Assembly: GCA_025765595.1 (NCBI GenBank)
Contig: JAIVFH010000015.1
Coordinates: 372,001 to 436,000, forward strand
DNA: 64,000 nucleotides
From: Obelidium mucronatum
Taxonomy: Eukaryota > Chytridiomycota > Chytridiomycetes > Chytridiales > Chytriomycetaceae
Direction: 5' to 3'
Shown here: positions 543 to 64,000 of the stretch, in pieces
How the letters are laid out: each line of letters begins with the position of its first letter
Position numbering within the stretch: position 1 is the first letter of the stretch
Notes under the pieces: generated by a model
The model's input: only the letters and a program-made list of their open reading frames with translations
What the model was told of the DNA's origin: nothing
The model's database searches: none
Made by a program: the position numbers and the translations under genes

Positions 543-882
543 GTGTTAATACAATTAAATGACTATTCGATGTTGATTCATCGAACACAGGTTCTGGACC
601 AGCCAGATACTCTGTCAGTATTTTGGTTCTGTAAGAAACAAGGAGTAGTTGCGTTGTCATCTAAGGTATATCTCATTTTCAGAAACCATCAAGGATGGGT
701 TGTGGTATCGTCAGTTCTTGGAGGAACTGGGTTGGCCTGTTAACACACCAACAATGATTTATCAAGACAACAAATCAACTATTGCAGTGGCAATGAATCT
801 GATTTATCATTGTATGACAAAGCATATTGACACAAGAGTTAATTTCTTCAGAGATCATTTGATTATTGTAGAACAGTATGGT
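543..882 (+). pseudogene. Copia retrotransposon RNase H remnant, left half
   Basis: Degraded C-terminal part of a Ty1/Copia polyprotein. Readable pieces in changing frames include a VALSS motif, an ELGWP piece, YQDNKSTIAVA (the RNase H DN motif) and TKHIDTRVNFFRDHL, which is the usual Copia H-I-D block before the C-terminus. Frameshifts and stops interrupt the upstream part, so it is dead. The frame running up to position 882 (VEQYG) continues at 12555 (RTEDM) once the intervening 11.7-kb element and one copy of its target duplication are removed, which shows that both pieces were one gene. Confidence 0.8.
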
Positions 883-909
883 CAGCCGTTTGACCAAATA
901 TTATTTTTT
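883..909 (+). repeat. Left terminal inverted repeat of the 11.7-kb element
   Basis: Begins CAGCCGTTTGACC and pairs with the right end over 27 nt with one mismatch. The preceding ATGGT (878-882) is the left target duplication. Confidence 0.9.
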
Positions 910-919
910 CAAAAGAGGG

Positions 920-1015
920 TCAAAATTCAATATTTTTTTTAACACACAGTCAAAATTCTGTCTTTTTTTGAACACAGAGTGAAAAAGAATTTTTTTTTTC
1001 AACATAGAGTTGTTA
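920..1015 (+). repeat. Left subterminal repeats of the 11.7-kb element
   Basis: Three imperfect copies of a T-tract followed by AACACA(N)AGT or AACATAGAGT, spaced about 35-40 nt. Related T-tract plus CAACATA/CACACAG motifs lie in the opposite orientation near the right end (about 12340-12480). Irregular subterminal repeats are typical transposase or integrase binding arrays; binding here is inferred. Confidence 0.5.
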
Positions 1016-1182
1016 TCAGAAAAAGTAACAAGAGTGACGAAACTAATAAAAACCACTACTGGCAGATTTCTGCACATTTAAATCAACGTTATATGCAATT
1101 TACTCAGATTTCCAACACATTGCAGTTGACGTAGAGAGTTGGGGCAGTTGTGGCAAAAGTTCTGAAAAAAAAGAGAAGAAAA

Positions 1183-4078
1183 ATGACAACAACTGCATGC
1201 GTCAAGTGCAGTTGTTGTAACCAGTTTAAACCTGCTGCAACAGTTCAAATTCTTGATGAGAAGCAGTGGTGCACTGACTGCCTTTCGAATCTGGTGAAGG
1301 ACCGATCGCAAACAAACAGTTCAACATCAGTGGTAACAAATGGGGTTGCATCAAGAATGCCACCATCATCAGCAAACACAAAAACATTGCATGATACAAG
1401 GTACAGATGTCTTTATTGTTCTCGTCACTGACACTAATGGCTCATTCAGGAATGTCACCTCCTTTTTGAGCGTGGTTCAAACTTTCCAATCGCAAGCTGA
1501 CGCAAGTAGCACAAGCACTAGATCTGTAGCCGACGCAGCAAGTGCCGAGAGGCGCAATGTTATGGCACCATACAAGCGTTACCAAGTTCCCAATACGCTG
1601 GTTGCGCCTGGGGCAACAATATTCAAGAATCGAGAAAAGCGCAAAGTTTCTGAGAAGTCCACCGCTGGTTCTAACAAAAGAAGCAACCCTATTCAATCAA
1701 TTATGAAAAACCATTCCAGTGGTTCATTGGGCGTCAACCAAAAAATCCCAGCCGATAACAGAAACGGCGGAATGGGTTACAAGGGCAAAGGTGTGACTAT
1801 TAACATGTATTACGTCCCTCGAACAATGTATTTTGAAGACAAAGGGAATCGTCATGACATTTTTATCTTTCCATTTGATGAAATGTAAGATTTGTCATTT
1901 GTGGGCACCCATACGTGAGCTTATTTCAAATTCACAGGCAAAAAGAACTCAAAACTCTTAAACTGTTTCCGGAAACGATTACAGTCAATTCGGGACTTTT
2001 GAAAAGTGCGTTAGAAACATTTGCGAAAAAAGGGTACCAGATGACTGTCGATTCTCAATGTCCTTTTGACAAGCTTAACTGGGTTCTGATGAGTTACGAA
2101 GGAGGGTATCAAGTTGAAGGAAAGGTGATGTTTCAGCCTGAGTGCTCATCGGAAAGACTTGAAACAATGTGGCAGCAACTTCAATCAGACACGATGCTGA
2201 ATGAGCAAGCCAAAGGACATGGCTATTACCAGCAGATCTGTAGTTATCAGAGCACGTTCCAGCGGAGAACAAAGAGCTATTTCATCCATGCATTTCCTAA
2301 AGATCAACCACTAGTTGGTGAGTAATTTTAAAACATCAATATTAGCTGACGGATACCACCAATCAGGGAATCACAGTATTGTATCTGGCATTGAGGCTCA
2401 CCAGTTAAAGGATGGAATTGCTACGATTGCTAAAACTGAGAGTGACCAACCCAGCGACAGCGATGACCACAATGGGATTGGGACTTGTGCGGCAACTAAA
2501 ACAGTGGAATATCCCATGTTTTCTTCAGTTAATGCGGCGCTTTCAACTGAAAATATTGGTGAAAGCTCGCAACAACCTTCTCGGCGTGCTCGACCAATGA
2601 TCCACTTAGATTGGACACATGACAATCCTCCCAGCGACGACACAACCGTATCTTCAATTTCGACAACCTTGCCGCCAATAGATGATGATATTCTCCAACT
2701 CCTTGAGGCTGACAACAATTTCCATTTGGACTTGGAGATGGCGTACTTTGCATCGCAGGAACTGTCAAACAGTTCGGAAGCTCTTGATCACACTCCTACA
2801 ACCTCATCAGAGGCTCAAACCTCTTCAAATGAACTAGAGCCTACGGTGGAAGAAATACGGAATCGGTCTGCCATGGCTGCTGTCGCAAGAGCTGCTCAAC
2901 CAACGCCAGGATCTCAAACAGAAACTGTGCAACAACTGGGTCAGAACAATCAACAAAACCATGAAAACACAGAATCATCTACTCTTTCAGAAAACACAGA
3001 ATCATCTACTCTTGCAGAAATTACCGATATCTTTGCTGCTTGTGATCGTTTGCGGACGTGGGATTCTGTGCGTCTTGGAATCCCAACAGGGGAAAAATAT
3101 GAAATTAGGCAACCTGCCGGTGGTTTTACAGCGTACAACATTGAAGGCCTTCTTGACGATGAAATGAGTACCCGGTCTTTTGCAAAACTTCCTGTTTTGC
3201 AAGATAATGAAGAATTCCCTGCGTTTGATGCTCGAGGCTCAGTATTGGCACAAACGGCAGTATTTTTTGGTGAAGAGAGACTTAAATCAAATGAGTTTGA
3301 AGGAGAAACTTTGAGACATTTTGGTTTGACGGAGCGAAAGCCAAGTGCACGATTGCGTTTGAGCTACATCAGCTTTGGAAAAGTACCGATTATTCATGTC
3401 TTTTTTGTTATTATTATAAACATGATTTCTTTCATTTAGTATCTGTGTTGGGGCCTTCTTCATCGCGCTGACGCATGTATGTTTCCTTCTCAAATGGCAC
3501 CACAAATGCTATTGAACGTTTTAAATGCGCCTGTAAGTTGGTACACGCGCGCGATGGTTGAAAGAAGTGGAAATGGGAACGTATTCCAGTTTATTGGCCC
3601 TAATCGCAACTACTACTGTGAAAGTGTGAAGGGAAGGATTGTCACCCACAATACTTGGGCTGATGAATTGGAATTGGATCAGTATGTGTGGGGGCCCGAT
3701 GTAAGTTTTGATACACTCAAAATGTATTGCTAATATCTGTCACAGCTTGATAGGGATTGGGAGGCAGCCTTGGATAACGAATGGGAGGCATTTGTTATTC
3801 TGGCAGAATGTGTTCTGAAGTGCTACACTGCTGCAGGACTTGCACGACGAGGTTTTAATCATCATTGGCTCACAGATGATCAAAGTGAGGAAGAAGGACA
3901 TGTCAATGAGCTCCCAGACTTTCAACAGCTTTTTCCCCTTGTCGCGAATCTCTTTCAAGAACCAACAACATTTGATGAGTATCGAAAACAGTTTAAACCA
4001 CTTGCATTGACTGCATCTGATCGTGAGCGCCAGACTTGGATGGCATGGATGGAAATTGCAAGAACTTGGACTTGCTAG
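1183..4078 (+). CDS. Cargo gene 1: unknown 880-aa protein with N-terminal Cys cluster
   Basis: I assembled six exons: 1183-1400, 1450-1884, 1938-2317, 2367-3382, 3440-3700, 3746-4078. All introns are GT-AG and 45-57 nt, and phases agree throughout. The start ATG at 1183 is the first in frame. Residues about 5-35 hold a CxxCxCC...CxxC cluster that looks like a small zinc-binding module. The middle is Ser/Thr/Gln-rich and acidic; the C-terminal third looks globular, with aromatic-rich segments (NWVLMSYEGGY, LDQYVWGPD). I do not recognise the family. It lies next to the integrase on the opposite strand, so it could be an accessory transposition protein, but nothing proves this. The reading frame may continue after a frame break near 4060. 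Confidence 0.7.
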
Positions 4079-4318
4079 CAGTACTGCAGAAGCTTGCGAT
4101 TGAACACAGGACAGTCATTTATCCCTGTACCGAAATTGATTGCTCTTTCATTCACTGCACAGCCAAACTATTGCAAGTACTCCACTTGCTTCAGCAATGT
4201 TAATGTCAGTTTTTACGATGTTTGTGAGGAGGGAGTTGATGGGGTGGCGTCTGGTATGTTTGCTGGTTTGATTGCACCAGATATGTCTGACGAAGCCCTC
4301 AAATTTGGAGCAGTTTAA
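4079..4318 (+). other. Possible out-of-frame C-terminal continuation of cargo gene 1
   Basis: After the stop at 4076-4078 two other frames stay open in succession: one reads NLDLLAVLQKLAIEHRTVIY starting before the stop, another ends VASGMFAGLIAPDMSDEAL at 4318. Both look protein-like. Either an intron was missed, or one or two indels broke the original 3' end. Confidence 0.35.
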
Positions 4319-4359
4319 TAATACATAAATTCATTTATGAAAAATACAACTTTGCGCTC

Positions 4360-6190
4360 TCAATTTTCAGATTCTTCTTCACTTCCTTCATCTTCTGCTA
4401 TGTCACTGTCGCTGTCAAAAACAACGTTCACATCATTCTCTTGTATCATACCGTTGACAACTGCCTTAGCATCTCGAAATATGCGAGCCCCATATTCTTG
4501 GTCATCAGACAGCATCACAGTCTTTGGAAACATATGATGGAAGACTTCAAGCTGAATTGGGGTAAGGGGACACTGAATCTTTCCAACACGAGCTCTTTCG
4601 GCTCTTGGATTTGGCATAAAGTTGCTGAAGTCTCCATCTTCAAATCTCTCACGTCGAGGTCGTCCATGAGGATCGTCTCCATAAATCTCAATTTCACCGT
4701 CATGCAGAGAATCTCCCACTGGGTCATCCAAAACAGATCGGCTTTGAAGAAGTAAACCCACGTTAAACACTAAGTTTGGTGATTTGTAGTGATGCATTCG
4801 CTTTTTATGATTGTTGTGAGCTTCTCGAAACTGATCCAGAACGAGTTGAATTCGTGGCAGAAATACTTGATGCAGAACCCAGAGCTCCCATGTATTATTC
4901 ACATCCAAGCAGTCCCCTTCCATTTCCTGAAATAGTTGCTTGAAATCGTCAATTACTTTCTTCCCCACGTCAAGATTGAATCGTTCAATTCGCTGATTAT
5001 GGACAGATCTCCCAGCAATACAAGACCCCCTTCCTAGGCCATTCTTCTGGATCACATATTCTGCAACAAGGATATTTTCTCCACCTGTTTGTGCAAGATA
5101 TTCAAAACAGTAACAAATCAAAATGCACCAACCTTTATCACATCTTACTCTGGAAGGAGTTCCATACGTGGCGCATCCACTCAAAAAAGCCTGAAGTACA
5201 GTTTCAGGACGGTTATTGGTTGATACTTTGGCATAAGTGCAGAGATGTGAAAAGCCATTGATTCCTAGCAGCCAGGGTTAAGATTGAGAATAGACAAACG
5301 CACATCTTACCTGCGTGAATAACAAACTTCCATTTGACTAATTTGTGGTTTCCATCAATATGTTGAAGTGCATGTGGTCCAATAACTGTATAGCGACGCC
5401 TCACAATTGCATGCACTAACCGATTGAATACGCCAACTGGGTCAGCTTCCTTGACAGCACAACGAACACGTTGCCTTGTTACACGAATACCAAACATTGA
5501 CCATAAGTGAGCTGCAATAAAGTCTGCACCTGATTTTTTGTGGATTCGGAATATATCGCGCACTTTTCCCAGCAAGTCAATGTCGGTAATATCCGACCAT
5601 GAGTATGGATCGACGAACGCTCCATTTGCAATTGCTTTTTGTATGGTGTTCATAAGAGTTGTTTGGCTTATATCTGCACAACTTGCAATCAGTGACCAAG
5701 TGGCGCCATACTGTCTCAGAACATGAACTTGAGCCAAGCTAACTTCCTTTTTTGGTCGGCCGGCACGTCCAGTTCTAGCAATATCTACAGTCAGTCTCCC
5801 AGAGTATTCCTCCTTGATTGTATCATCCACTTTGGTAATCAAATGTAGCAATCGAGCTTCCACATCAGACAAGTTCTCAATTATGGCTTCTGACAGTTTA
5901 GGACCCAAACGGTTCTGCTGATGAACCACAGACTGCAGAAGGGCTTCAATGTAACCAACCATCTGTTTCATTGTATTCCGATCCATTCGATGGCGTTTCT
6001 CAGTTCTGTAAGCCCTGCGTAGAGTCATCAGTGCGTATTCTGAAACATTGCCAATGAAATCTTGATCGTGTTGATTCCTTTCAAGAACCTCGGCCGTTTC
6101 ATTGATATTTGCATCAAAAGCATTATCCATGATCACATCTTCAAGGTCGTCATCCAGCGCATCCAAGTTGAAGGGTTGACCAAGGTCCAT
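4360..6190 (-). CDS. DDE integrase (rve-like core) of the 11.7-kb element
   Basis: Three exons (6190-5311, 5264-5133, 5084-4360; introns 46 and 48 nt) give 578 residues. The N-terminal 280 residues include a helical region and a likely DNA-binding HTH (AGRPKK...ATWSLIASCADISQTTLM). The catalytic core follows: first Asp in HIDGNHKLVKW (residue 279), second Asp in RCDKGGEN (336), Glu in NQRIER (371), so D,D(34)E as in retroviral-type integrases. The GRSVHNQRIER block is typical of the integrase-core proteins scattered in fungal and animal genomes. The C-terminus is acidic (SDSDIAEDEGSEEE). All three catalytic residues and both splice phases are intact. It is the probable mobility enzyme. An alternative start lies 7 codons upstream (6211). 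Confidence 0.88.
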
Positions 6191-6310
6191 TGTTTTTCTT
6201 CTTTGTTTCAAGATGTTTCACTTATTGGGTATTAGACTTTATTGAGATCCCATCACTGGAAATCACCAAAATCCAAGAAACTTGTCCAGTCGATTGCTGT
6301 TATACGTTTA

Positions 6311-6342
6311 GGTGGTGCCGTCAGACGGCGTTAAACCACTAC
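6311..6342. repeat. Palindromic hairpin, shorter copy
   Basis: Core GCCGTC-A-GACGGC followed by GTTAA, with outer GGTGGT/ACCACT arms. It shares the 18-nt core GCCGTCAGACGGCGTTAA with the larger palindrome about 220 bp away. Confidence 0.7.
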
Positions 6343-6527
6343 CAGAGCGTGCAGACTGTGGCGTTGCATGTGGTGGTGGCGTCGGAGATACATCGTAATA
6401 TTTAATTTAATAATGTACAATCTCCGTTTCGGCGGCCAATGAAGCGCCACTGATTCAGTTGCTATGACCTTGGGCCCCAGCTTCCTTGGCCTTGGGATTG
6501 CGGCACTTTGTTGGCATTTTGTGAACA

Positions 6528-6564
6528 AATAAAATTAACGCCGTCAGACGGCGTTAATTTTATT
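6528..6564. repeat. Perfect 18-bp-arm palindrome (cruciform or hairpin)
   Basis: Two 18-nt arms centred on a single A at 6546, running from AATAAAATTAACGCCGTC to its exact complement. It lies between the integrase promoter side and the minisatellite. It could be a cruciform, a protein-binding dyad, or an end of a smaller nested element; nothing in the sequence decides. Confidence 0.85.
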
Positions 6565-6660
6565 GACCATCAACAAACACCAATCACCAAACAAACCCCA
6601 ACCACGTCCGACTTCGAAGCAGTCCGATCTTTGTCAAAACCCATAAACTCAAACCGAACC

Positions 6661-7330
6661 CAATTCCATCCAAGAACGGACAAGAATTCTTTGTCAAAAC
6701 AACCGAACCATCCAAAACAGACGAGTAAACCAATTTTATCCAAGAACGGACAAGAATTCTTTGTCAAAACAACCGAACCATCCAAAACGGACGAGTAAAC
6801 CAATTTTATCCAAGAACGGACAAGAATTCTTTGTCAAAACAACCAAACCATCCAAAACGGACGAGTAAACCAATTTTATCCAAGAACGGACAAGAATTCT
6901 TTGTCAAAACAACCGAACCATCCAAAACGGACGAGTAAACCAATTTTATCCAAGAACGGACAAGAATTCTTTGTCAAAACAACCAAACCATCCAAAACGG
7001 ACGAGTAAACCAATTTTATCCAAGAACGGACAAGAATTCATTGTCAAAACAACCGAACCATCCAAAACAGACGAGTAAACCAATTTTATCCAAGAACGGA
7101 CAAGAATTCTTTGTCAAAACAACCGAACCATCCAAAACGGACGAGTAAACCAATTTTATCCAAGAACGGACAAGAATTCTTTGTCAAAACAACCAAACCA
7201 TCCAAAACGGACGAGTAAACCAATTTTATCCAAGAACGGACAAGAATTCATTGTCAAAACAACCGAACCATCCAAAACGGACGAGTAAACCAATTCCATC
7301 CAAGAACGGACAAGAATTCTTTGTCAAAAC
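6661..7330 (+). repeat. 70-bp minisatellite, about 9.6 copies
   Basis: Copies start at 6661, 6731, 6801, 6871, 6941, 7011, 7081, 7151, 7221 and 7291 (last partial). Each holds CCAAGAACGGACAAGAATTC and TTGTCAAAACAACC. Variation is limited to a few positions (CAATTCC versus CAATTTT, AACCG versus AACCA, ATTCT versus ATTCA). The outermost copies share CAATTCC while the inner ones have CAATTTT, as expected if inner copies expanded recently. Confidence 0.95.
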
Positions 7331-7508
7331 CCAACGGACGAGATTCGCTGCCAAATATTCGAGAATCAGGACAAACTTCACCTTTATTTATAGTATTGAT
7401 TAATAAAGTTATTGTTGCATTGCACACATTCAACAGCATTACAGTTACGGAATCTACACACGGCTGTAGAATGGCCAGGAATGCAGCAGTGAGAACAAGA
7501 CCTGCTCT

Positions 7509-8148
7509 TTAAAACCTTGTCAGCGTCCCTTTCCTTGCACTGCGGCTTTTCACACCCGAGATACCGGCATATTCACGCTGATGTTGAAGCTGCCTATCAA
7601 GTCGCAAGTCGCAGTGCTGGCACTTGAGATTCTTGCCGGCAGATCGAGCTTCTTTTTGTCTTGCCAAGTACACGTGATAACAGTGTAGCATTCGTATTGT
7701 CACATTTTCAGATTCAGTTCGCTGCCGTTCTGGAGGTGACAGTGGCTTTACTTTCAGGCTTTCCTGTAGAAGTATGTCGCCTGCCCAATCTATCAGAAAA
7801 CATAAAGAAACTATGTCAAATCGAAGAAAATGCAGTACCTTCAATGTCAGGTGAGGCCCAAAAATCTTTTTTCAGGCCGGCAGGATTGAACGATTCCGCC
7901 GAATCCATATCAAGCGTGTCCCCCTCCTCAATCTCAGACTCCAGATCCTCACTCAAGCTCTCCACTTCATCAAATTTGACCCCTGCCTGAGGCTAACATT
8001 GTGTGAGAGAAGAATTTCAGCAGAGCCGTTCATTCAATACCTGTAGTTGATTGACAAGGTTGCTCAAAGGAATCCCAACCTCTTCGTAGCTACCGCTCTT
8101 TTCATATCGACAAATTACGGACGCAAGGTGGTACTGAAAACTGCTCAT
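7509..8148 (-). CDS. Cargo gene 2: unknown acidic-to-basic protein
   Basis: Three exons (8148-8041, 7986-7839, 7789-7509; introns 54 and 49 nt, consistent phases) give about 178 residues starting MSSFQYHLASVICRYEK. The middle is very acidic (SLSEDLESEIEEGD). The C-terminal part has CQHCDLRLDRQ, a possible half zinc motif, and a basic tail. No family recognised. It is divergent from the cenH3-like gene, with only 153 bp between the start codons, so the two are probably co-regulated. Confidence 0.65.
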
Positions 8149-8301
8149 TGGTTTTTTTAGTTTGACAGGTTTTTTTTCTGACTTCAAGCTTTGATGAGCA
8201 TTTCTTGGGCGGGACTTTGGGCGGGATTTTCACCAACCTTTTTCAAAGTTAAACTGGAAGCATTATAATTTTTTTTGAAAGAAAGGTTATCTCATTCAAA
8301 C
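8149..8301. promoter_or_regulatory. Shared divergent promoter with two E2F-like sites
   Basis: Two identical TTGGGCGGGA decamers at 8205-8214 and 8217-8226. GGCGGGA is the core of the E2F/DP site known from S-phase genes. A CATTATAATT stretch at 8261-8270 could act as a TATA-like element for the histone gene. Regulation by E2F is inferred from the motif only. Confidence 0.55.
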
Positions 8302-9086
8302 ATGGGCAGAAAGCGGCAGCCACCAAAAAGACTGGATTCAGTTGCTCAATCAAGTCAAACACACTCAATCAACAACCGGAACACCAAAAATCAAAAATTT
8401 ACTCTTGCTGGAGTTCATGGTCCATTTCGGGCTCTTCGCGAGATTCAAAAGTATCAAAAGATGGATGGACGACTGCTTTTAACAGCTTCATTTCGTCGCA
8501 TTGTAAGAGCCTTACATAAACATTTTATGCCTCTCTCATGTTTATTCAACAGACTCGTACTGTTGCAATTGAACTGTTCACTGAGGCTCGCGGAATTCGG
8601 TTTGCTGCTCAAGCTCTGGAGTGCATCCAAGATGCTACCGAGGCATATCTTGTAACACTTATGGAAGATGCCAATCGCGTTGCAATCCATGCAAAACGCG
8701 TAACATTGTTTCCAACTGACATTCGGCTTGTAAACTATCTTTGTCGGCATTCCCTTCCTTCCAACAGCTCTGAAGTGAAATCAGCTGGTACTCCCCACCA
8801 AAATCTGAATGTTGACAAAATGAATGAAAAGCTTCTTCCGAGTACCGCTGTCCATCCAAAAGCAAGGCGTGGACAATTAATTGCAACTGTTCCAGCTTGT
8901 GGGGAATCATCAAACAAGGCTGACAAAGACTTTACTCCAACTGGTCAAAACAAGCGTCAAAGAATTACTGCCGGTGGTGAAAAGGATGGAACTGAGGGAG
9001 AAATGGTGTTGCCACGGAGAAGTCGTCGACGACTGACAGTTGTGCAAGATAGCGATTCAGAGACTGGTCCTGCTTCAGCTGCATGA
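8302..9086 (+). CDS. Histone H3-fold protein, cenH3/CENP-A-like, on a transposon
   Basis: Two exons (8302-8502, 8553-9086; 50-nt intron) give 244 residues. Residues 1-37 are a basic tail (MGRKRQPPKRL...). Residues 38-135 align along the whole H3 fold: FRALREIQKYQK (alpha-N), FRRI then TRTVAIELF (alpha 1), ALECIQDATEAYLV (alpha 2), HAKRVTLFPTDIRL (alpha 3). Loop 1 (FTEARGIRF, residues 76-84) is two residues longer than in canonical H3, and LFP replaces the IMP of H3; both are CENP-A traits. Residues 136-244 are a long low-complexity extension ending in a basic RRSRRR patch and an acidic SDSE, not normal for H3. The start at 8302 is chosen because MGRKR fits a histone tail; an upstream in-frame ATG at 8275 exists. 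Orthology to the host cenH3 cannot be settled here. Confidence 0.85.
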
Positions 9087-9152
9087 TATTGATCCCACAA
9101 ATAAATTGATTTGTGGCCTCATTTGTTTGCTGCCATTTGCAGCATTTTTTCA

Positions 9153-10778
9153 ATGAGAAACATGCGTTACTGGAGGCCTGACCCCAGCCCGATTCCCTAT
9201 CATGGGCCAAAAATTGTGGAGCTGGAATCTACGTACCACACAGATAGAGATGCTGTTCAGGAACAGGACCAGCAGATCATTCAGTGGGGGAGCCAGCAGT
9301 CCGCAAGAAGGAGCGAGAGATCCGCAGGAATGAACAGCACCCATGATTCAGTCCAACGGACCACAGATACTGTGCCATCTGCCAAAGGTGTGGGTTCTGC
9401 CTGTATCGATTATGATATCAGTGAAACAAGCCGCACAGCATCGATCCTACCTTCCCAAGCCAAAAAGACCAAAGAGCACGGTTTCAGCTGGTAACATTTC
9501 CAATTCCTTCCCGGCTTACTGGAGGAGGGCAGCAGCAAAGTTCTTCTATTCATTCCAGCATTCGAATCGTGTTTCCGGCAGTATCTGAGTATCCTTCTAC
9601 CTCTCTTCCTCCCAATATATCGGCAGCTGTTTCAACCTCTCCTCCTCCTAATACATTGGCCGCTGTTTCAACCTCTCCATCGGCCGCTGTTGCAACCTCT
9701 CCATCGGCCGCTGTTTCAACCTCTCCATCGGCCGCTGTTTCAACCTCTGCATCGGCCGCTGTTTCTATTGACGACCATGCTCTGACCCCATCTTCAAGTG
9801 CCCCAAACCCTGTTTTACCTTCCGGAGCTACTACTGCTTCATTTTCTAGAGCTGTTCCAGCTGTTGAAGCACCTGTCACTGGATGGTTGAAGCTATCTGT
9901 TGTTATTCCCCAGAATATCAAAACAGTTAAAGTGAAAGTGCCACACTTCAATTCAGTGATGCAGTTCAAGGACGTTCTCAATGCCGTCAACAAGCTTCCC
10001 ATTCATGTTGCTGGTGGAATTGCCGAAACAGTATGCATCATTGGTGAAGACGGCGTAGAGGACTGGACATTTGAAGGAGAAATCAATCTCCATGAATACC
10101 CAGCAAACTTATTTGCAGTCTACTTAAAGGCGGGAGATCCTTTCAAACCAGTGGAAATCCCACCTGTCTCTGGTTCAAAATCTACAGTGTCTAAACGAGT
10201 ACCAGCCCAGGATTCCACCCCAAAACCAATTCAGCCTTCTGATACTGCCTCCCTGTCTGCCTCTACAGGAATCAAAACCGAAATGAGTAGAGCCAGCAAC
10301 ACAGTGGGACTGTACCTGCGGCAAGTTGAGTTGTTTGCTGCAAAGTACAGTGAAACAAAAGCAACTTCAAAATCAAACACAAAAGGGGACATCGAAGAAT
10401 GCTGTCGCACGAGCGATTATTCAGGAAAACGCTGTAGAATGCTCTACTTGGCCAGCAAGTAAGTTTAAGAAAACGCGTTAAGCATTTCTCACAACTTTCC
10501 TCTGAATAGCTGGGGATATGTACCTGTATAAAGCAGCCATCTTTGAAACATCAGCACGATTAAGCCAAATTTCAGCACTACGTCATGTGTCGTTGAAGGA
10601 TGCATCTCGTGCGTCTGAGCCTTTTGATATCAAGAAAATCACCGTTGAGTTGACTGGGCTGTTGGACAAGGTGAATGTTGGGCATAACATTGACATTAAT
10701 GTTAAGGGAGGAAATACAAAATTGTGGGCAATGTGGGGTACTTTTCATAAGTCAGAGGCTTGGTTACAGTGGAAATAA
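9153..10778 (+). CDS. Cargo gene 3: unknown Ser/Ala-rich protein with a +1 frame break
   Basis: Exons 9153-9490, 9541-10458 and 10510-10778 (introns 50 and 51 nt). The second exon starts with a run of SPSAAVSTS-type repeats, then a likely folded domain (GWLKLSVVIPQNIKTVKVKV... DGVEDWTFEGEINLHEYP). The last segment (AVARAIIQENAVE, then GDMYLYKAAIFETSARL) is in the +1 frame relative to the first, with the switch at an AAAAGGGG run near 10381-10388. One extra base there would explain it. I do not recognise the family. It follows the histone gene by about 70 bp on the same strand. Confidence 0.55.
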
Positions 10779-11581
10779 AGTTTCATATTAATAATCTTTG
10801 CTTTTTATCCCCAATTTAATTCTTTTTGAATGGAGTCGAATGCCCCCAAATCATTTGCCCACTAATGAGCAAGATGCCCACTTTTGCGATTTCAAGTTGC
10901 ATTCTGTTTTCTTCTTTCATTCCTTTGTTGCTTTTTTTTGTTCTTTCTTTCATTGTTCCTTCTTTGCTTTGTACCGTCTTTCCTTTGTTGCTCACAGGAA
11001 AACGAATCTCCCACCCGCCACACCTTGTCCGTTGTTCTGCCTTTGCCCACCACACAACTGCCAGTTGTTGCCTATCATTTCCTCTCACACCTCAACTTGC
11101 GAGGTCACTCTTACCCACAGCTTTCGCAACTTTATCTTTTCTTACACCCCTTTTTGGTCGCTCTAACAAAGACATCGGGGAGGCGCCACAAGTGGGGCCC
11201 CTACCTTTGTAGGCATCCCCACCGGCGTGTCCTTCTTGTCTTCCTGTTGGCTGCACGACTTTAGGGCTGTTGATGCTGTGGGTGTCTCGCCTACACATGT
11301 TCAGTTTCTTTGTGTTGTTAGCCAATAAAGGCCTTTTATCGCGTAACCACATCACTGTGTTGTTCAAGCGTCCAAGACGAAGCGGTTTGCATGGGAAAAA
11401 AAAACATGGAAGGTAGGAGACGTAGGTGCACTTGGCACAATGCACTACATAGCTCTACAGACCGTTCCACATCACACTGCCACCAAAAAATTTAAAACAA
11501 GCTAGTGCCACTGTATGATCAAGTCCTTTTATTAATGTTACAAACAGCAACTGACTCATTACTCGAACAACGCAAAACACA
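10779..11581. other. No gene recognised
   Basis: Contains a CT-rich tract (about 10905-10995) and ordinary sequence with an AATAAAGG poly(A)-like signal near 11325. Open frames here are low-complexity. Part of it could be an LTR remnant but I cannot define ends. Confidence 0.35.
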
Positions 11582-12294
11582 TTATCCTTTGTGCAGAGCA
11601 AAATTACCGCAAAGCACTCCATTAGACTCATTATCAGAATCAGAACCCTCATCAGACGTGGTTTCAAAGTAGTGCGCTAAGTCACCACAACTTTGATCCA
11701 TCATTCCAGCCACCACCGCGGAATCAACATCTGTGATGTATCTTACAACAGCGTCGGTGCAGCTTGGGAATCTCTTCAGCCACAGTATAAGAAAACTTCT
11801 TTATCGCACTTTTCCACTAGCACAAGTTGCGGCTGCAGTTTAATCTTGATCAAGCGCTGAAGCCACTTCTGAAACCCTTGCCCATAACCGCCACCATTCA
11901 TAGGGAACCCAATGCACCACAGAGCTGCCAAATAGTTGTAGTTTAAGCTGTTTACCCAGCTGACAGATACCTGACACCGCACCAACTCTTCATTTCGTTT
12001 TCGATGTCTTTCACGAATAGCACAAGCAGGTCCTGCTTGTGGAACGTCCGAAACAAGTCTTGTCCAATAATGGATGTCTGTTTCAGGTGGATTTTGCGTA
12101 AATCTGTCGGACACCAGGTGCTCCTTAGCAAAGGTGCGGTCGTTGAGGATTGCTGCAAACTGCTTGCTGGCAGCACCAACAACACGGAAGAGATGCCTGC
12201 TGACTGGGAGCTTGATCAGAATCATTTGCACCACTTCAGGAGGAACACCATATCCCCACGGGTATTGTGAAGTCATTTTTTCTTTCCTTCCCAT
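11582..12294 (-). CDS. F-box-like protein with acidic tail
   Basis: The N-terminal exon reads VPPEVVQMILIKLPVSRHLF, then VVGAASKQFAAILNDRTFA: the helix pattern of an F-box (P-E-hydrophobic-LP, later W/C-K-x-F). The frame ends at 11776, but the next frame stays open and reads RFPSCTDAVVRYITDVDSAV, ending with an acidic Ser-rich tail (SDEGSDSDNES) at 11582. A roughly 49-nt intron from a GTGCTA or GTGGAA donor near 11822 to GAAG near 11775 joins them in phase. F-box proteins recruit substrates to SCF ubiquitin ligases; its substrate here is unknown. An alternative start is at 12276. Confidence 0.5.
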
Positions 12295-12334
12295 CAGACT
12301 TATCTGTTTTATACTACATTCAAATGGGGCCAGT

Positions 12335-12485
12335 GTATGACTTTTTTTTCAAACATGCTCTATGTGTTCAATATTTTCTTGTTTGTGAACTCTTGTGTGA
12401 AAAAAAATAATAGTACAAACTGTGTGCAAAAAAAAAATCAGACTTGCTTGATATGTTGCAAAAAAAAATAATAATATGTGCTACT
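12335..12485 (-). repeat. Right subterminal repeats of the 11.7-kb element
   Basis: Read on the minus strand, long T-tracts are each followed by CAACATA, CACACAGTT or CACACAAGAGTT at roughly 40-nt spacing. This mirrors the left side, but copies are too divergent for certainty by eye. Confidence 0.45.
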
Positions 12486-12522
12486 TGTTGCCCAAAAATC
12501 TGGGAAATGACTATATCTTCCA

Positions 12523-12549
12523 AATAAATAATATTTGGTCAAACGGCTG
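12523..12549 (-). repeat. Right terminal inverted repeat of the 11.7-kb element
   Basis: Reads GGTCAAACGGCTG at its outer end, the reverse complement of the left end. It is followed by ACGGT (12550-12554), which differs from the left duplication ATGGT by one base. Confidence 0.9.
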
Positions 12550-12554
12550 ACGGT

Positions 12555-12698
12555 AGAACGGAAGACATGATTGCAGATATCATGACAAAAGCTCTTCCAG
12601 GTCCACAACACATGAAGCTTACTGCAATGTTGCGTTTGCGTTCCTTGGCGGATTTAATTGGTAAAAGTATTATGCAGTTAGTTTCTTTTGATGAGTGA
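12555..12698 (+). pseudogene. Copia retrotransposon C-terminus, right half
   Basis: Reads RTEDMIADIMTKALPGPQHM and then KLTAMLRL to a stop, the standard Copia polyprotein terminus. It continues the frame broken at 882 by the 11.7-kb element. Confidence 0.85.
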
Positions 12699-59281: not shown

Positions 59282-59325
59282 ATATGGTCATGCTCTGAAT
59301 CAATTTTTTTCAATGTGGCATGATG

Positions 59326-59406
59326 CCAGAATGGCCTCTGGAAGCATGCTGCAAGGAGACTTGAGGATACAGGGCACATGTGAAGGACACCCTTGCTTTT
59401 TCTACC
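59326..59406 (-). repeat. Inverted, diverged satellite fragment at the array edge
   Basis: CCAGAATGGCCTCTGGA and the sequence to CACCCTTGCTTTTT match the reverse complement of the satellite unit, with several differences. Confidence 0.75.
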
Positions 59407-59439
59407 GGTCCAAGCTTTTGATTTTCAAAGCTGCAAAAA

Positions 59440-62400
59440 ACATGTCTTTCAAAACATGCATTCCATGTAGGGTGCAAGTTTGAGGGCTTGTCACACTGGC
59501 CATCACTTGGCGTGTGCAACAACAAAACTACTGGTTCCGCTACAGAAAATGCACAGAAACACACGCCCAGCAGCTCAAATTGAAGCCTGCAGGCAGACAA
59601 AGCCAATGGCGTAAAAAGCAAGGGTGCCTGACACATGGTGCACTGTTTGGGGAGACTTGAGGAGAACTCCTCATGTCTCCTTGCAGCTTGGCTCCAGAGG
59701 CCATTCTGGCTTCTGGGATTGCCAATGTCTTGCAAAACACGCATTCCATATATGGTCCAAGTTTGAGGGCTGGCGGCTGAGATGGTCACACTGGCCATCA
59801 CTTGGCGTGTGCAACAACAAAACTACTGGTTCCGCTACAGAAAATGCACAGAAACACACGCCCAGCAGCTCAAATTGAAGCCTGCAGGCAGACAAAGCCA
59901 ATGGCGTAAAAAGCAAGGGTGCCTGACACATGGTGCACTGTTTGGGGAGACTTGAGGAGAACTCCTCATGTCTCCTTGGAGCTTGGCTCCAGAGGCCATT
60001 CTGGCTTCTGGGATTGCCAATGTCTTGCAAAACACGCATTCCATATATGGTCCAAGTTTGAGGGCTGGCGGCTGAGATGGTCACACTGGCCATCACTTGG
60101 CGTGTGCAACAACAAAACTACTGGTTCCGCTACAGAAAATGCACAGAAACACACGCCCAGCAGCTCAAATTGAAGCCTGCAGGCAGACAAAGCCAATGGC
60201 GTAAAAAGCAAGGGTGCCTGACACATGGTGCACTGTTTGGGGAGACTTGAGGAGAACTCCTCATGTCTCCTTGCAGCTTGGCTCCAGAGGCCATTCTGGC
60301 TTCTGGGATTGCCAATGTCTTGCAAAACACGCATTCCATATATGGTCCAAGTTTGAGGGCTGGCGGCTGAGATGGTCACACTGGCCATCACTTGGCGTGT
60401 GCAACAACAAAACTACTGGTTCCGCTACAGAAAATGCACAGAAACACACGCCCAGCAGCTCAAATTGAAGCCTGCAGGCAGACAAAGCCAATGGCGTAAA
60501 AAGCAAGGGTGCCTGACACATGGTGCACTGTTTGGGGAGACTTGAGGAGAACTCCTCATGTCTCCTTGCAGCTTGGCTCCAGAGGCCATTCTGGCTTCTG
60601 GGATTGCCAATGTCTTGCAAAACACGCATTCCATATATGGTCCAAGTTTGAGGGCTGGCGGCTGAGATGGTCACACTGGCCATCACTTGGCGTGTGCAAC
60701 AACAAAACTACTGGTTCCGCTACAGAAAATGCACAGAAACACACGCCCAGCAGCTCAAATTGAAGCCTGCAGGCAGACAAAGCCAATGGCGTAAAAAGCA
60801 AGGGTGCCTGACACATGGTGCACTGTTTGGGGAGACTTGAGGAGAACTCCTCATGTCTCCTTGCAGCTTGGCTCCAGAGGCCATTCTGGCTTCTGGGATT
60901 GCCAATGTCTTGCAAAACACGCATTCCATATATGGTCCAAGTTTGAGGGCTGGCGGCTGAGATGGTCACACTGGCCATCACTTGGCGTGTGCAACAACAA
61001 AACTACTGGTTCCGCTACAGAAAATGCACAGAAACACACGCCCAGCAGCTCAAATTGAAGCCTGCAGGCAGACAAAGCCAATGGCGTAAAAAGCAAGGGT
61101 GCCTGACACATGGTGCACTGTTTGGGGAGACTTGAGGAGAACTCCTCATGTCTCCTTGCAGCTTGGCTCCAGAGGCCATTCTGGCTTCTGGGATTGCCAA
61201 TGTCTTGCAAAACACGCATTCCATATATGGTCCAAGTTTGAGGGCTGGCGGCTGAGATGGTCACACTGGCCATCACTTGGCGTGTGCAACAACAAAACTA
61301 CTGGTTCCGCTACAGAAAATGCACAGAAACACACGCCCAGCAGCTCAAATTGAAGCCTGCAGGCAGACAAAGCCAATGGCGTAAAAAGCAAGGGTGCCTG
61401 ACACATGGTGCACTGTTTGGGGAGACTTGAGGAGAACTCCTCATGTCTCCTTGCAGCTTGGCTCCAGAGGCCATTCTGGCTTCTGGGATTGCCAATGTCT
61501 TGCAAAACACGCATTCCATATATGGTCCAAGTTTGAGGGCTGGCGGCTGAGATGGTCACACTGGCCATCACTTGGCGTGTGCAACAACAAAACTACTGGT
61601 TCCGCTACAGAAAATGCACAGAAACACACGCCCAGCAGCTCAAATTGAAGCCTGCAGGCAGACAAAGCCAATGGCGTAAAAAGCAAGGGTGCCTGACACA
61701 TGGTGCACTGTTTGGGGAGACTTGAGGAGAACTCCTCATGTCTCCTTGCAGCTTGGCTCCAGAGGCCATTCTGGCTTCTGGGATTGCCAATGTCTTGCAA
61801 AACACGCATTCCATATATGGTCCAAGTTTGAGGGCTGGCGGCTGAGATGGTCACACTGGCCATCACTTGGCGTGTGCAACAACAAAACTACTGGTTCCGC
61901 TACAGAAAATGCACAGAAACACACGCCCAGCAGCTCAAATTGAAGCCTGCAGGCAGACAAAGCCAATGGCGTAAAAAGCAAGGGTGCCTGACACATGGTG
62001 CACTGTTTGGGGAGACTTGAGGAGAACTCCTCATGTCTCCTTGCAGCTTGGCTCCAGAGGCCATTCTGGCTTCTGGGATTGCCAATGTCTTGCAAAACAC
62101 GCATTCCATATATGGTCCAAGTTTGAGGGCTGGCGGCTGAGATGGTCACACTGGCCATCACTTGGCGTGTGCAACAACAAAACTACTGGTTCCGCTACAG
62201 AAAATGCACAGAAACACACGCCCAGCAGCTCAAATTGAAGCCTGCAGGCAGACAAAGCCAATGGCGTAAAAAGCAAGGGTGCCTGACACATGGTGCACTG
62301 TTTGGGGAGACTTGAGGAGAACTCCTCATGTCTCCTTGCAGCTTGGCTCCAGAGGCCATTCTGGCTTCTGGGATTGCCAATGTCTTGCAAAACACGCATT

Positions 62401-64000
62401 CCATATATGGTCCAAGTTTGAGGGCTGGCGGCTGAGATGGTCACACTGGCCATCACTTGGCGTGTGCAACAACAAAACTACTGGTTCCGCTACAGAAAAT
62501 GCACAGAAACACACGCCCAGCAGCTCAAATTGAAGCCTGCAGGCAGACAAAGCCAATGGCGTAAAAAGCAAGGGTGCCTGACACATGGTGCACTGTTTGG
62601 GGAGACTTGAGGAGAACTCCTCATGTCTCCTTGCAGCTTGGCTCCAGAGGCCATTCTGGCTTCTGGGATTGCCAATGTCTTGCAAAACACGCATTCCATA
62701 TATGGTCCAAGTTTGAGGGCTGGCGGCTGAGATGGTCACACTGGCCATCACTTGGCGTGTGCAACAACAAAACTACTGGTTCCGCTACAGAAAATGCACA
62801 GAAACACACGCCCAGCAGCTCAAATTGAAGCCTGCAGGCAGACAAAGCCAATGGCGTAAAAAGCAAGGGTGCCTGACACATGGTGCACTGTTTGGGGAGA
62901 CTTGAGGAGAACTCCTCATGTCTCCTTGCAGCTTGGCTCCAGAGGCCATTCTGGCTTCTGGGATTGCCAATGTCTTGCAAAACACGCATTCCATATATGG
63001 TCCAAGTTTGAGGGCTGGCGGCTGAGATGGTCACACTGGCCATCACTTGGCGTGTGCAACAACAAAACTACTGGTTCCGCTACAGAAAATGCACAGAAAC
63101 ACACGCCCAGCAGCTCAAATTGAAGCCTGCAGGCAGACAAAGCCAATGGCGTAAAAAGCAAGGGTGCCTGACACATGGTGCACTGTTTGGGGAGACTTGA
63201 GGAGAACTCCTCATGTCTCCTTGCAGCTTGGCTCCAGAGGCCATTCTGGCTTCTGGGATTGCCAATGTCTTGCAAAACACGCATTCCATATATGGTCCAA
63301 GTTTGAGGGCTGGCGGCTGAGATGGTCACACTGGCCATCACTTGGCGTGTGCAACAACAAAACTACTGGTTCCGCTACAGAAAATGCACAGAAACACACG
63401 CCCAGCAGCTCAAATTGAAGCCTGCAGGCAGACAAAGCCAATGGCGTAAAAAGCAAGGGTGCCTGACACATGGTGCACTGTTTGGGGAGACTTGAGGAGA
63501 ACTCCTCATGTCTCCTTGCAGCTTGGCTCCAGAGGCCATTCTGGCTTCTGGGATTGCCAATGTCTTGCAAAACACGCATTCCATATATGGTCCAAGTTTG
63601 AGGGCTGGCGGCTGAGATGGTCACACTGGCCATCACTTGGCGTGTGCAACAACAAAACTACTGGTTCCGCTACAGAAAATGCACAGAAACACACGCCCAG
63701 CAGCTCAAATTGAAGCCTGCAGGCAGACAAAGCCAATGGCGTAAAAAGCAAGGGTGCCTGACACATGGTGCACTGTTTGGGGAGACTTGAGGAGAACTCC
63801 TCATGTCTCCTTGCAGCTTGGCTCCAGAGGCCATTCTGGCTTCTGGGATTGCCAATGTCTTGCAAAACACGCATTCCATATATGGTCCAAGTTTGAGGGC
63901 TGGCGGCTGAGATGGTCACACTGGCCATCACTTGGCGTGTGCAACAACAAAACTACTGGTTCCGCTACAGAAAATGCACAGAAACACACGCCCAGCAGCT
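59440..64000 (+). repeat. 295-bp satellite array, about 15 copies, running off the window
   Basis: The unit containing CACTGGCCATCACTTGGCGT recurs every 295 bp from about 59491 to the window end. Copies after the first diverged one are almost identical; one difference is TTGGAGCTTGG near 59978 where others have TTGCAGCTTGG. 295 is not a multiple of three, and open frames of 69-141 codons on both strands repeat only because the unit does, so I do not call genes. It starts directly after the WDR26-like gene. A satellite at this homogeneity could be centromeric, subtelomeric or interspersed. Confidence 0.97.

Follow-up and report, generated by a model that had tools for sequence, protein, structure and literature searches.

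Why should a DNA transposon of the chytrid Obelidium mucronatum carry a gene for a divergent histone H3, and is this histone centromeric, as the preliminary description of the locus proposed? The window, i.e. the whole stretch of 64,000 nucleotides analysed here (C15:372001-436000 in an assembly of 48.3 Mb and 694 contigs, C denoting contigs), encodes on its plus strand a spliced histone H3 variant of 244 amino acids plus stop. The first exon (8302-8502) and the second (8553-9086, with loop 1, alpha 2, alpha 3 and a C-terminal extension) are separated by a single phase-0 intron (8503-8552, GTAAGA..CAG) that is supported by its splice signals and by a second copy of the locus on C45, where the counterpart is 51 nt long. 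The open frame matches the Pfam Histone family over residues 36-130 (E=2.7e-22), in keeping with the earlier claim that the protein spans the whole H3 fold. The reported VTLFP in place of VTIMP is also present, and a long C-terminal extension, put at 109 residues, does reach about 110 residues beyond the fold. Loop 1 is longer than that of H3 as described, although by three residues rather than two (24 versus 21 by direct count). The N-terminal tail is unlike that of H3, and direct reading finds that the ARKS surroundings of K9 and K27 are absent from it.

Where might such a gene have come from? Its intron lies between L and V of RLVRE, in phase 0, in the C15, C45, C2 and C20 genes (placed by script), and by eye the same position is found in the host's own cenH3 on C209 and in a host H3 variant on C35. 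In contrast, eight canonical H3 places (on C215, C5 twice, C184, C2 three times and C465) match query residues 43/44-130/131 in one open frame, and three more (L025, L028, L030) are split at other points. Since the RLVRE intron is common to the variants whereas canonical H3 is uninterrupted there, the window gene sides with the genome's non-canonical H3 genes, which rules out that it was recently copied from canonical H3. Close relatives of the full-length protein outside this genome were also sought, without success (106 proteins returned, 7993 candidates scored): the best two protein relatives are Obelidium copies (P0002 and P0131), and the third (P0132, E=5e-21) covers only 34% of the query. 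A viral origin was dropped as well, as viral contigs scanned with two peptide patterns from a 4-row alignment gave 58 pattern matches and no confirmed one.

The histone gene resides in a DNA transposon of 11,679 bp (877-12555) with the ends TATGG...CCGTA, delimited by comparison with C45, C313 and C295. Its terminal inverted repeats (TIRs; 877-916 on the plus and 12516-12555 on the minus strand) comprise 36-nt arms (881-916/12516-12551) that are 89% complementary, with a local alignment score of 53 against a maximum of 33 in 200 shuffles, plus four outer bases. A TIR starting at 881 with a duplication of 0-1 bp was considered and dropped, because the C45 copy, whose outer bases are identical, puts the ends at 877 and 12555. 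The element interrupts a copia-type element within its degraded coding end and is flanked on the plus strand by GAACAG (871-876) and GAACGG (12556-12561), which agree at five of six bases; uninterrupted relatives of the insertion site on C43 and C270 read TTGTAGAACGGAAGACATG, and this fixes the duplication at 6 bp. Two end searches recovered the second full-length copy at C45:207263-218942, with a perfect TCCAAC/TCCAAC duplication and flanks unrelated to those of the window. Four main blocks that are 96.3, 93.4, 94.4 and 92.2% identical span the two copies from end to end, and the differences include a divergent tandem array and an indel near the right end. In the C45 copy the histone frame is open, as is the first transposase exon (96%). 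C313 holds the left part of the element, about 98% identical up to the array and 83-87% from there to the contig end, and C295 holds the right end (88-89%). That these two are one split copy is ruled out by their differing flanks. Indeed, the flanks of the window, C45, C313 and C295 copies are all distinct, so that at least four insertions must have occurred.

The placement of the histone between TIRs and target duplications together with an integrase, as first proposed, is thus borne out by the ends, the duplications, the second copy and an intact DDE transposase. The latter is a 578-residue protein encoded on the minus strand in three exons, in which all three catalytic acids are visible: the first D in exon 1 (5311-6190, HIDGNHK), the second D in exon 2 (5133-5264, RCDKGGEN, spanning the junction with exon 3) and the E in exon 3 (4360-5084, HNQRIERFN). 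It matches Pfam rva_4 (E=1.3e-60) and, weakly and below cut-off, HTH_21; protein relatives occur in two other chytrids, Rhizoclosmatium sp. JEL0117 and Podochytrium sp. JEL0797 (53% and 46%, respectively). IS3EU elements of rust fungi have TIRs of more than 30 bp ending in TAYGG..CCRTA and 6-bp duplications (PMC12730594), and IS3EU elements in general have TA..TA ends and duplications that are usually 6 bp long (PMC10045372). The ends and TIR length of the window element fit this pattern, as do the 6-bp duplications of the window and C45 copies, and it is this match of ends and duplications with published descriptions that points to the IS3EU superfamily. The divergent H3 variant is therefore a standing gene of an autonomous-looking IS3EU-type transposon and no chance fragment, an identity of which we are highly confident. 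Three further regions appear to hold passenger genes: 1188-4318 on the plus strand, with several open stretches, and 9425-10775 on the plus strand, with at least two, neither yielding a Pfam family above cut-off in the stretches scanned, and 11776-12294 on the minus strand, with a weak F-box-like match below cut-off (E=0.05). A second group of related transposases (40% identical) is present on C101, C124 and C182 (L034-L036), with about 96-97% DNA identity among its members; a genome search with the window histone gave no match on these three contigs.

The histone is not confined to this element. Genes on C2, C202, C10 and C678 are 89-97% alike in aligned DNA blocks, and the C2 and C202 proteins share about 51% identity with the window protein across the alignment, which includes the C-terminal extension. 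The C2 and C10 copies belong to a second TIR element, with CATCGCAG ends and 21-bp perfect inverted ends (CATCGCAGAAATCTACCCAGC). With up to 2 mismatches allowed, the 21-base end pattern matches the genome 7 times and its reversed control 0 times; a left end of this kind is also present on C202 and on C33, C72 has one end, and the right end of the C202 element was not found in the stretch examined. An empty site on C292 reveals a 2-bp duplication, AT, at the C10 insertion, with one base difference, and the duplication of the C2 copy is TA. None of 8 open stretches of at least 90 residues on C10 and C2 belongs to a Pfam family above cut-off, and a genome search found no match to the window transposase near the C2-type copies. 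Given its 21-bp ends, its 2-bp duplications and the lack of a recognised transposase, the C2-type element is not IS3EU. A third carrier, on C20 and C62, is likely a Plavaka element, judging from a Plavaka transposase stretch upstream of the C20 gene pair (PF18759, E=1.6e-8, above cut-off) and from the two copies ending at the same base next to unrelated sequence, with a right end (...CTGATG) to be compared with the CA..TG ends of Plavaka. The H3-like genes of C20 and C62 (L026/L027), like those on C36, C10 (at 197 kb) and C221, are very divergent and paired with zinc-knuckle genes. Finally, at C143:9521-12685 (L024) a hAT transposase stretch (Dimer_Tnp_hAT, E=4.6e-13) adjoins a divergent H3-like fragment that contains a stop, which recalls the hAT-carried H3L genes of Pyrenophora discussed below. 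The module to which the histone belongs, or at least the histone, therefore accompanies two transposon types for which this is proven and at most two others.

This module consists of the histone gene, a head-to-head partner gene on the minus strand (7387-8147) and a tandem array directly past the 3' end of the partner (6668-7330, plus strand; 9.5 units of 70 bp according to TRF), an arrangement common to the window and C2-type elements. The partner protein has the motif CX2CX4HX4C, which we read as a zinc knuckle, plus further conserved Cys and His residues; no Pfam family above cut-off was found for it in the stretches scanned. Relative to C45, where the frame is open, the window copy of this gene has a frame break at 7387-7600, and yet the window histone and transposase are open, so that the zinc-knuckle and histone genes need not both be required in each copy. 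A genome search with the zinc-knuckle protein returned 19 matches at 14 loci, 11 of which have an H3-like gene head-to-head with it at a distance of 0.5-1.5 kb (C15, C45, C2, C202, C10 at 146 kb, C20, C62, C36, C35, C10 at 197 kb and C221); some of these, such as C20/C62 and C10 at 197 kb/C221, may be alleles or recent duplicates. Of the three unpaired loci, two lie at the end of their contigs (C313 and C118), and at the third (C33) no H3-like gene was detected. Conversely, the search gave no zinc-gene match near the H3-like genes on C73, C143, C6, C678, C28, C528 and C85. An array lies past the 3' end of the zinc-knuckle gene at all nine loci read (C15, C45, C2, C10, C202, C20, C62, C313 and C35). 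Besides the 70-bp units of the window, there are arrays of 81 bp x 3.8, 71 bp x 3.1 and 5.1, 72 bp x 3.1 and 46 bp x 3.9 and 6.1, the 46-bp unit being that of the likely Plavaka element; C313, whose zinc-knuckle gene is broken, has 81 bp x 3.5, and C35 has two 106-bp copies only, 139 bp apart. The C15-type unit is related to the 71-bp unit of the C2 type (74%, E=4e-16), and the C20 and C35 repeats differ in sequence from both. Searching the genome with the window-type unit gave 14 matches on 7 contigs (C15, C45, C313, C10, C295, C2 and C202), all of which hold an element copy. A minus-strand fragment of the 70-bp array also occurs at C295:15585-15717, some 475 bp beyond where the IS3EU copy on that contig ends on the right. 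The apparent novelty of the system is this module, a histone gene head-to-head with a zinc-knuckle gene that is followed by a tandem array.

The C35 locus deserves separate mention. It contains the H3 variant nearest to the mobile histones (C35:34920-38108, L019, and C35:33400-34919, L091), with a frame that is interrupted before the fold, and this variant lies between a zinc-knuckle gene and a SET-domain gene (Pfam SET, E=2.1e-8). Perhaps the pair of H3 variant and zinc-knuckle protein is a chromatin system of the host, serving for example a life stage, that transposons have repeatedly taken up. The C35 fold is indeed near canonical H3 (73%), the adjacent SET-domain gene would suit such a system and no transposase was seen in the stretch of about 4.7 kb read there. 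However, the interrupted frame of C35 argues against it, and most of the pairs are multi-copy, several of them in proven or likely elements, which makes an origin as a host system quite improbable.

Is the mobile histone a centromeric one? Loop 1 exceeds canonical H3 by three residues in the window protein, by two in the C35 variant and by seven in the host cenH3. VTLFP also occurs in seal CENP-A (P0151), but a sister mobile histone reads VTLFKED, so that the full mark is unconserved. The preliminary description was to be given up if this histone were the only cenH3 in the genome, and on this count it survives: the host has its own cenH3 in two similar copies on C209 and C55, perhaps alleles, with fission-yeast cnp1 as best PDB match (153.1 bits versus 147.5 for H3). 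By the same token, the window histone is not the centromeric H3 of this genome. The best 60 of its own 176 PDB matches are H3 or histone-domain entries, and none of these 60 bears a centromeric label. The mobile histones form one clade (100/100) in a 30-row tree, beside the host variants on C35 and C143 (90/82), and in a 20-row tree from which most long rows were omitted the clade again lies beside C35 (92/75), not beside cenH3. Constrained trees that group it with fungal cenH3, with all cenH3 rows or with canonical H3 have p-AU values of 0.27, 0.30 and 0.29, respectively, so that none of the three groupings is rejected. The mobile proteins thus resemble fungal cenH3 (cnp1 and the C209/C55 proteins) in the H3 fold, the longer loop 1 and, for the host cenH3, by eye, the place of the intron, and differ in grouping better with C35, in the C-terminal extension and in an N-terminal tail unlike that of H3. 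The CENP-A label is not supported by these data, and a CENP-A identity of the window histone is not established. It could still be imagined that a relative of cenH3 builds kinetochore-like chromatin on the array and thereby aids segregation or drive of the element, as the length of loop 1, the VTLFP mark, the neighbouring array of repeats and the p-AU values of 0.27-0.30 for a cenH3 grouping would permit. Yet the genome has its own cenH3 and the best placement of the clade is with C35. Moreover, a transposon that is part of a chromosome has no use for a centromere of its own, and a second centromere would break chromosomes. We consider a centromeric role very improbable.

A different concern is that host H3-variant loci were simply captured and copied along without function, in the manner of the RIP-inactivated H3 copies of Pseudocercospora. 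Such passive transduplication has precedents in hAT elements, and decay is evident here too, the C10 histone being broken and that of C202 having a deletion in the fold. Within element types there is no clear constraint on the histone: dN/dS is 0.65 for C15/C45 (6 and 12 changes) and 0.67 for C2/C202. Between types the picture differs. Comparing C15 or C45 with C2 or C202 gives dN/dS values of 0.08-0.13 for the fold and 0.27-0.46 for the C-terminal tail, values that are rough because dS is near saturation, and the zinc-knuckle proteins of C45 and C2 differ by 46 synonymous differences over 58.7 sites and 37 non-synonymous ones over 232.3. Judged by these ratios (dN/dS of about 0.1), purifying selection has acted on the histone fold between element types, a constraint that could also date back to the host genes from before their capture. 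Together with the recurrence of the two genes in one and the same arrangement at 11 of 14 loci and the open histone frame in both full IS3EU copies, this argues against mere copying, which strikes us as distinctly unlikely.

What, then, could a transposon gain from a histone of its own? An appealing scenario is that the zinc-knuckle protein binds the tandem array and guides deposition of the variant H3 on the element, in nucleosomes that, without the usual H3 tail, cannot take silencing marks, and that the element would thereby escape silencing. The ARKS surroundings of K9 and K27 of H3 have a role in silencing marks, and it is because the variant is without these motifs that its nucleosomes should be refractory. 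We favour self-targeted, silencing-resistant chromatin because of the missing ARKS tail, the array beside a gene that likely encodes a nucleic-acid-binding protein and the presence of the pair in several element types, although any divergent tail would likewise be expected to lose the tail marks. To the reading as a whole, a transposon-borne H3 variant in a recurrent module that provides self-targeted variant chromatin escaping silencing, we assign a probability of about 0.45. Its anti-silencing part is tentative, with the balance leaning slightly against it. That several unrelated chytrid transposon types share a portable module of H3 variant, zinc-knuckle targeting protein and binding-site array for self-packaging nucleosomes is an attractive generalization that we hold to be rather doubtful. 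It is also conceivable that the histone aids transposition, by packaging or bending donor or target DNA or by directing the transposase towards chromatin of a particular class, in a complex that would include the zinc-knuckle protein. The histone does adjoin the transposase in the IS3EU element and a Plavaka transposase elsewhere, and the constraint on the fold between element types would be expected. However, a specific contact with one transposase is unlikely since the same module is found with unrelated transposases, and the C2-type element has no recognised transposase; we regard an aid to transposition as unlikely.

Silencing-resistant chromatin would have parallels among other transposons. 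VANC of the Arabidopsis VANDAL elements binds to motif arrays, and the anti-silencing of VANDAL is similar in that a transposon-encoded protein is thought to recognise motifs of its own element, but differs in having no histone. IS3EU elements of rust fungi and Tuber carry TET/JBP genes, which have been read as a means of silencing escape and are also found in other superfamilies including Plavaka (Kojima, 2025, PMC12730594). The module described here might be a counterpart of these demethylases of fungal IS3EU and Plavaka elements, and it is partly by this analogy that escape from silencing through a mobile histone is proposed. Both kinds of IS3EU element combine 6-bp duplications with an epigenetic-type passenger gene. 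The rust and Tuber passenger is a TET/JBP dioxygenase encoded between the transposase and an alpha-kinase gene, whereas in Obelidium it is a histone with a zinc-knuckle protein; no alpha-kinase was detected among the stretches of the window element scanned with Pfam.

The initial statement that no described cargo transposon carries such a histone holds for the centromeric label only, since H3-like genes in hAT transposons of Dothideomycetes were described in 2013 and 2019 (PMC3538342; PMC6710886). The H3L hAT of Pyrenophora tritici-repentis, of about 5.6 kb, is associated with 26 very similar H3L genes, and H3L is by the authors' alignment neither H3 nor CenH3 (Manning et al., 2013, PMC3538342). 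Similar to the window element, it is a TIR element with a transposase, an unassigned ORF and an H3-like gene, and it exists in a longer, likely autonomous form and a shorter one. It differs in being an ascomycete hAT, and the available text mentions neither a zinc-knuckle partner nor an array. The Obelidium element is set apart by its IS3EU type and 6-bp duplications, its retained intron, the related histones in other element types and the constraint across these types. In Pseudocercospora and relatives, hAT elements with 8-bp duplications captured a housekeeping H3 in intronless form that was inactivated by RIP (Dhillon et al., 2019, PMC6710886). There too an H3 sequence was taken up by a DNA transposon and then copied, but the Obelidium gene has kept its intron and copies with open frames exist. 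With an rva_4 transposase and 6-bp rather than 8-bp duplications, the window element itself is unlike hAT. Searches of the open-access literature brought up no description of an IS3EU- or Plavaka-borne H3 gene or of its pairing with a zinc-knuckle gene, and the four places found of a review (PMC8616336) hold nothing on transposon-borne H3. In the literature examined, reports of H3-carrying transposons came from a single fungal class and demonstrated no function. The Obelidium case, from a distant phylum, adds constraint on the histone fold between element types and the retention of a partner gene and an array, raising the testable question of whether mobile elements change silencing by means of their own nucleosome parts. 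The surplus of divergent H3 genes in some fungal genomes could be explained by such elements.

Two further features of the window are of note. An inverted pair of 39 nt that is 95% complementary (28680-28718/36934-36972) possibly delimits another large TIR element, the interior of which is partly G+C-rich (0.52-0.60 at 28-34 kb and about 0.42 at 34-37 kb). Towards the end of the window (59322-64000), repeat arms recur at intervals of 295 bp between about 59.7 and 63.8 kb, forming a long tandem array.
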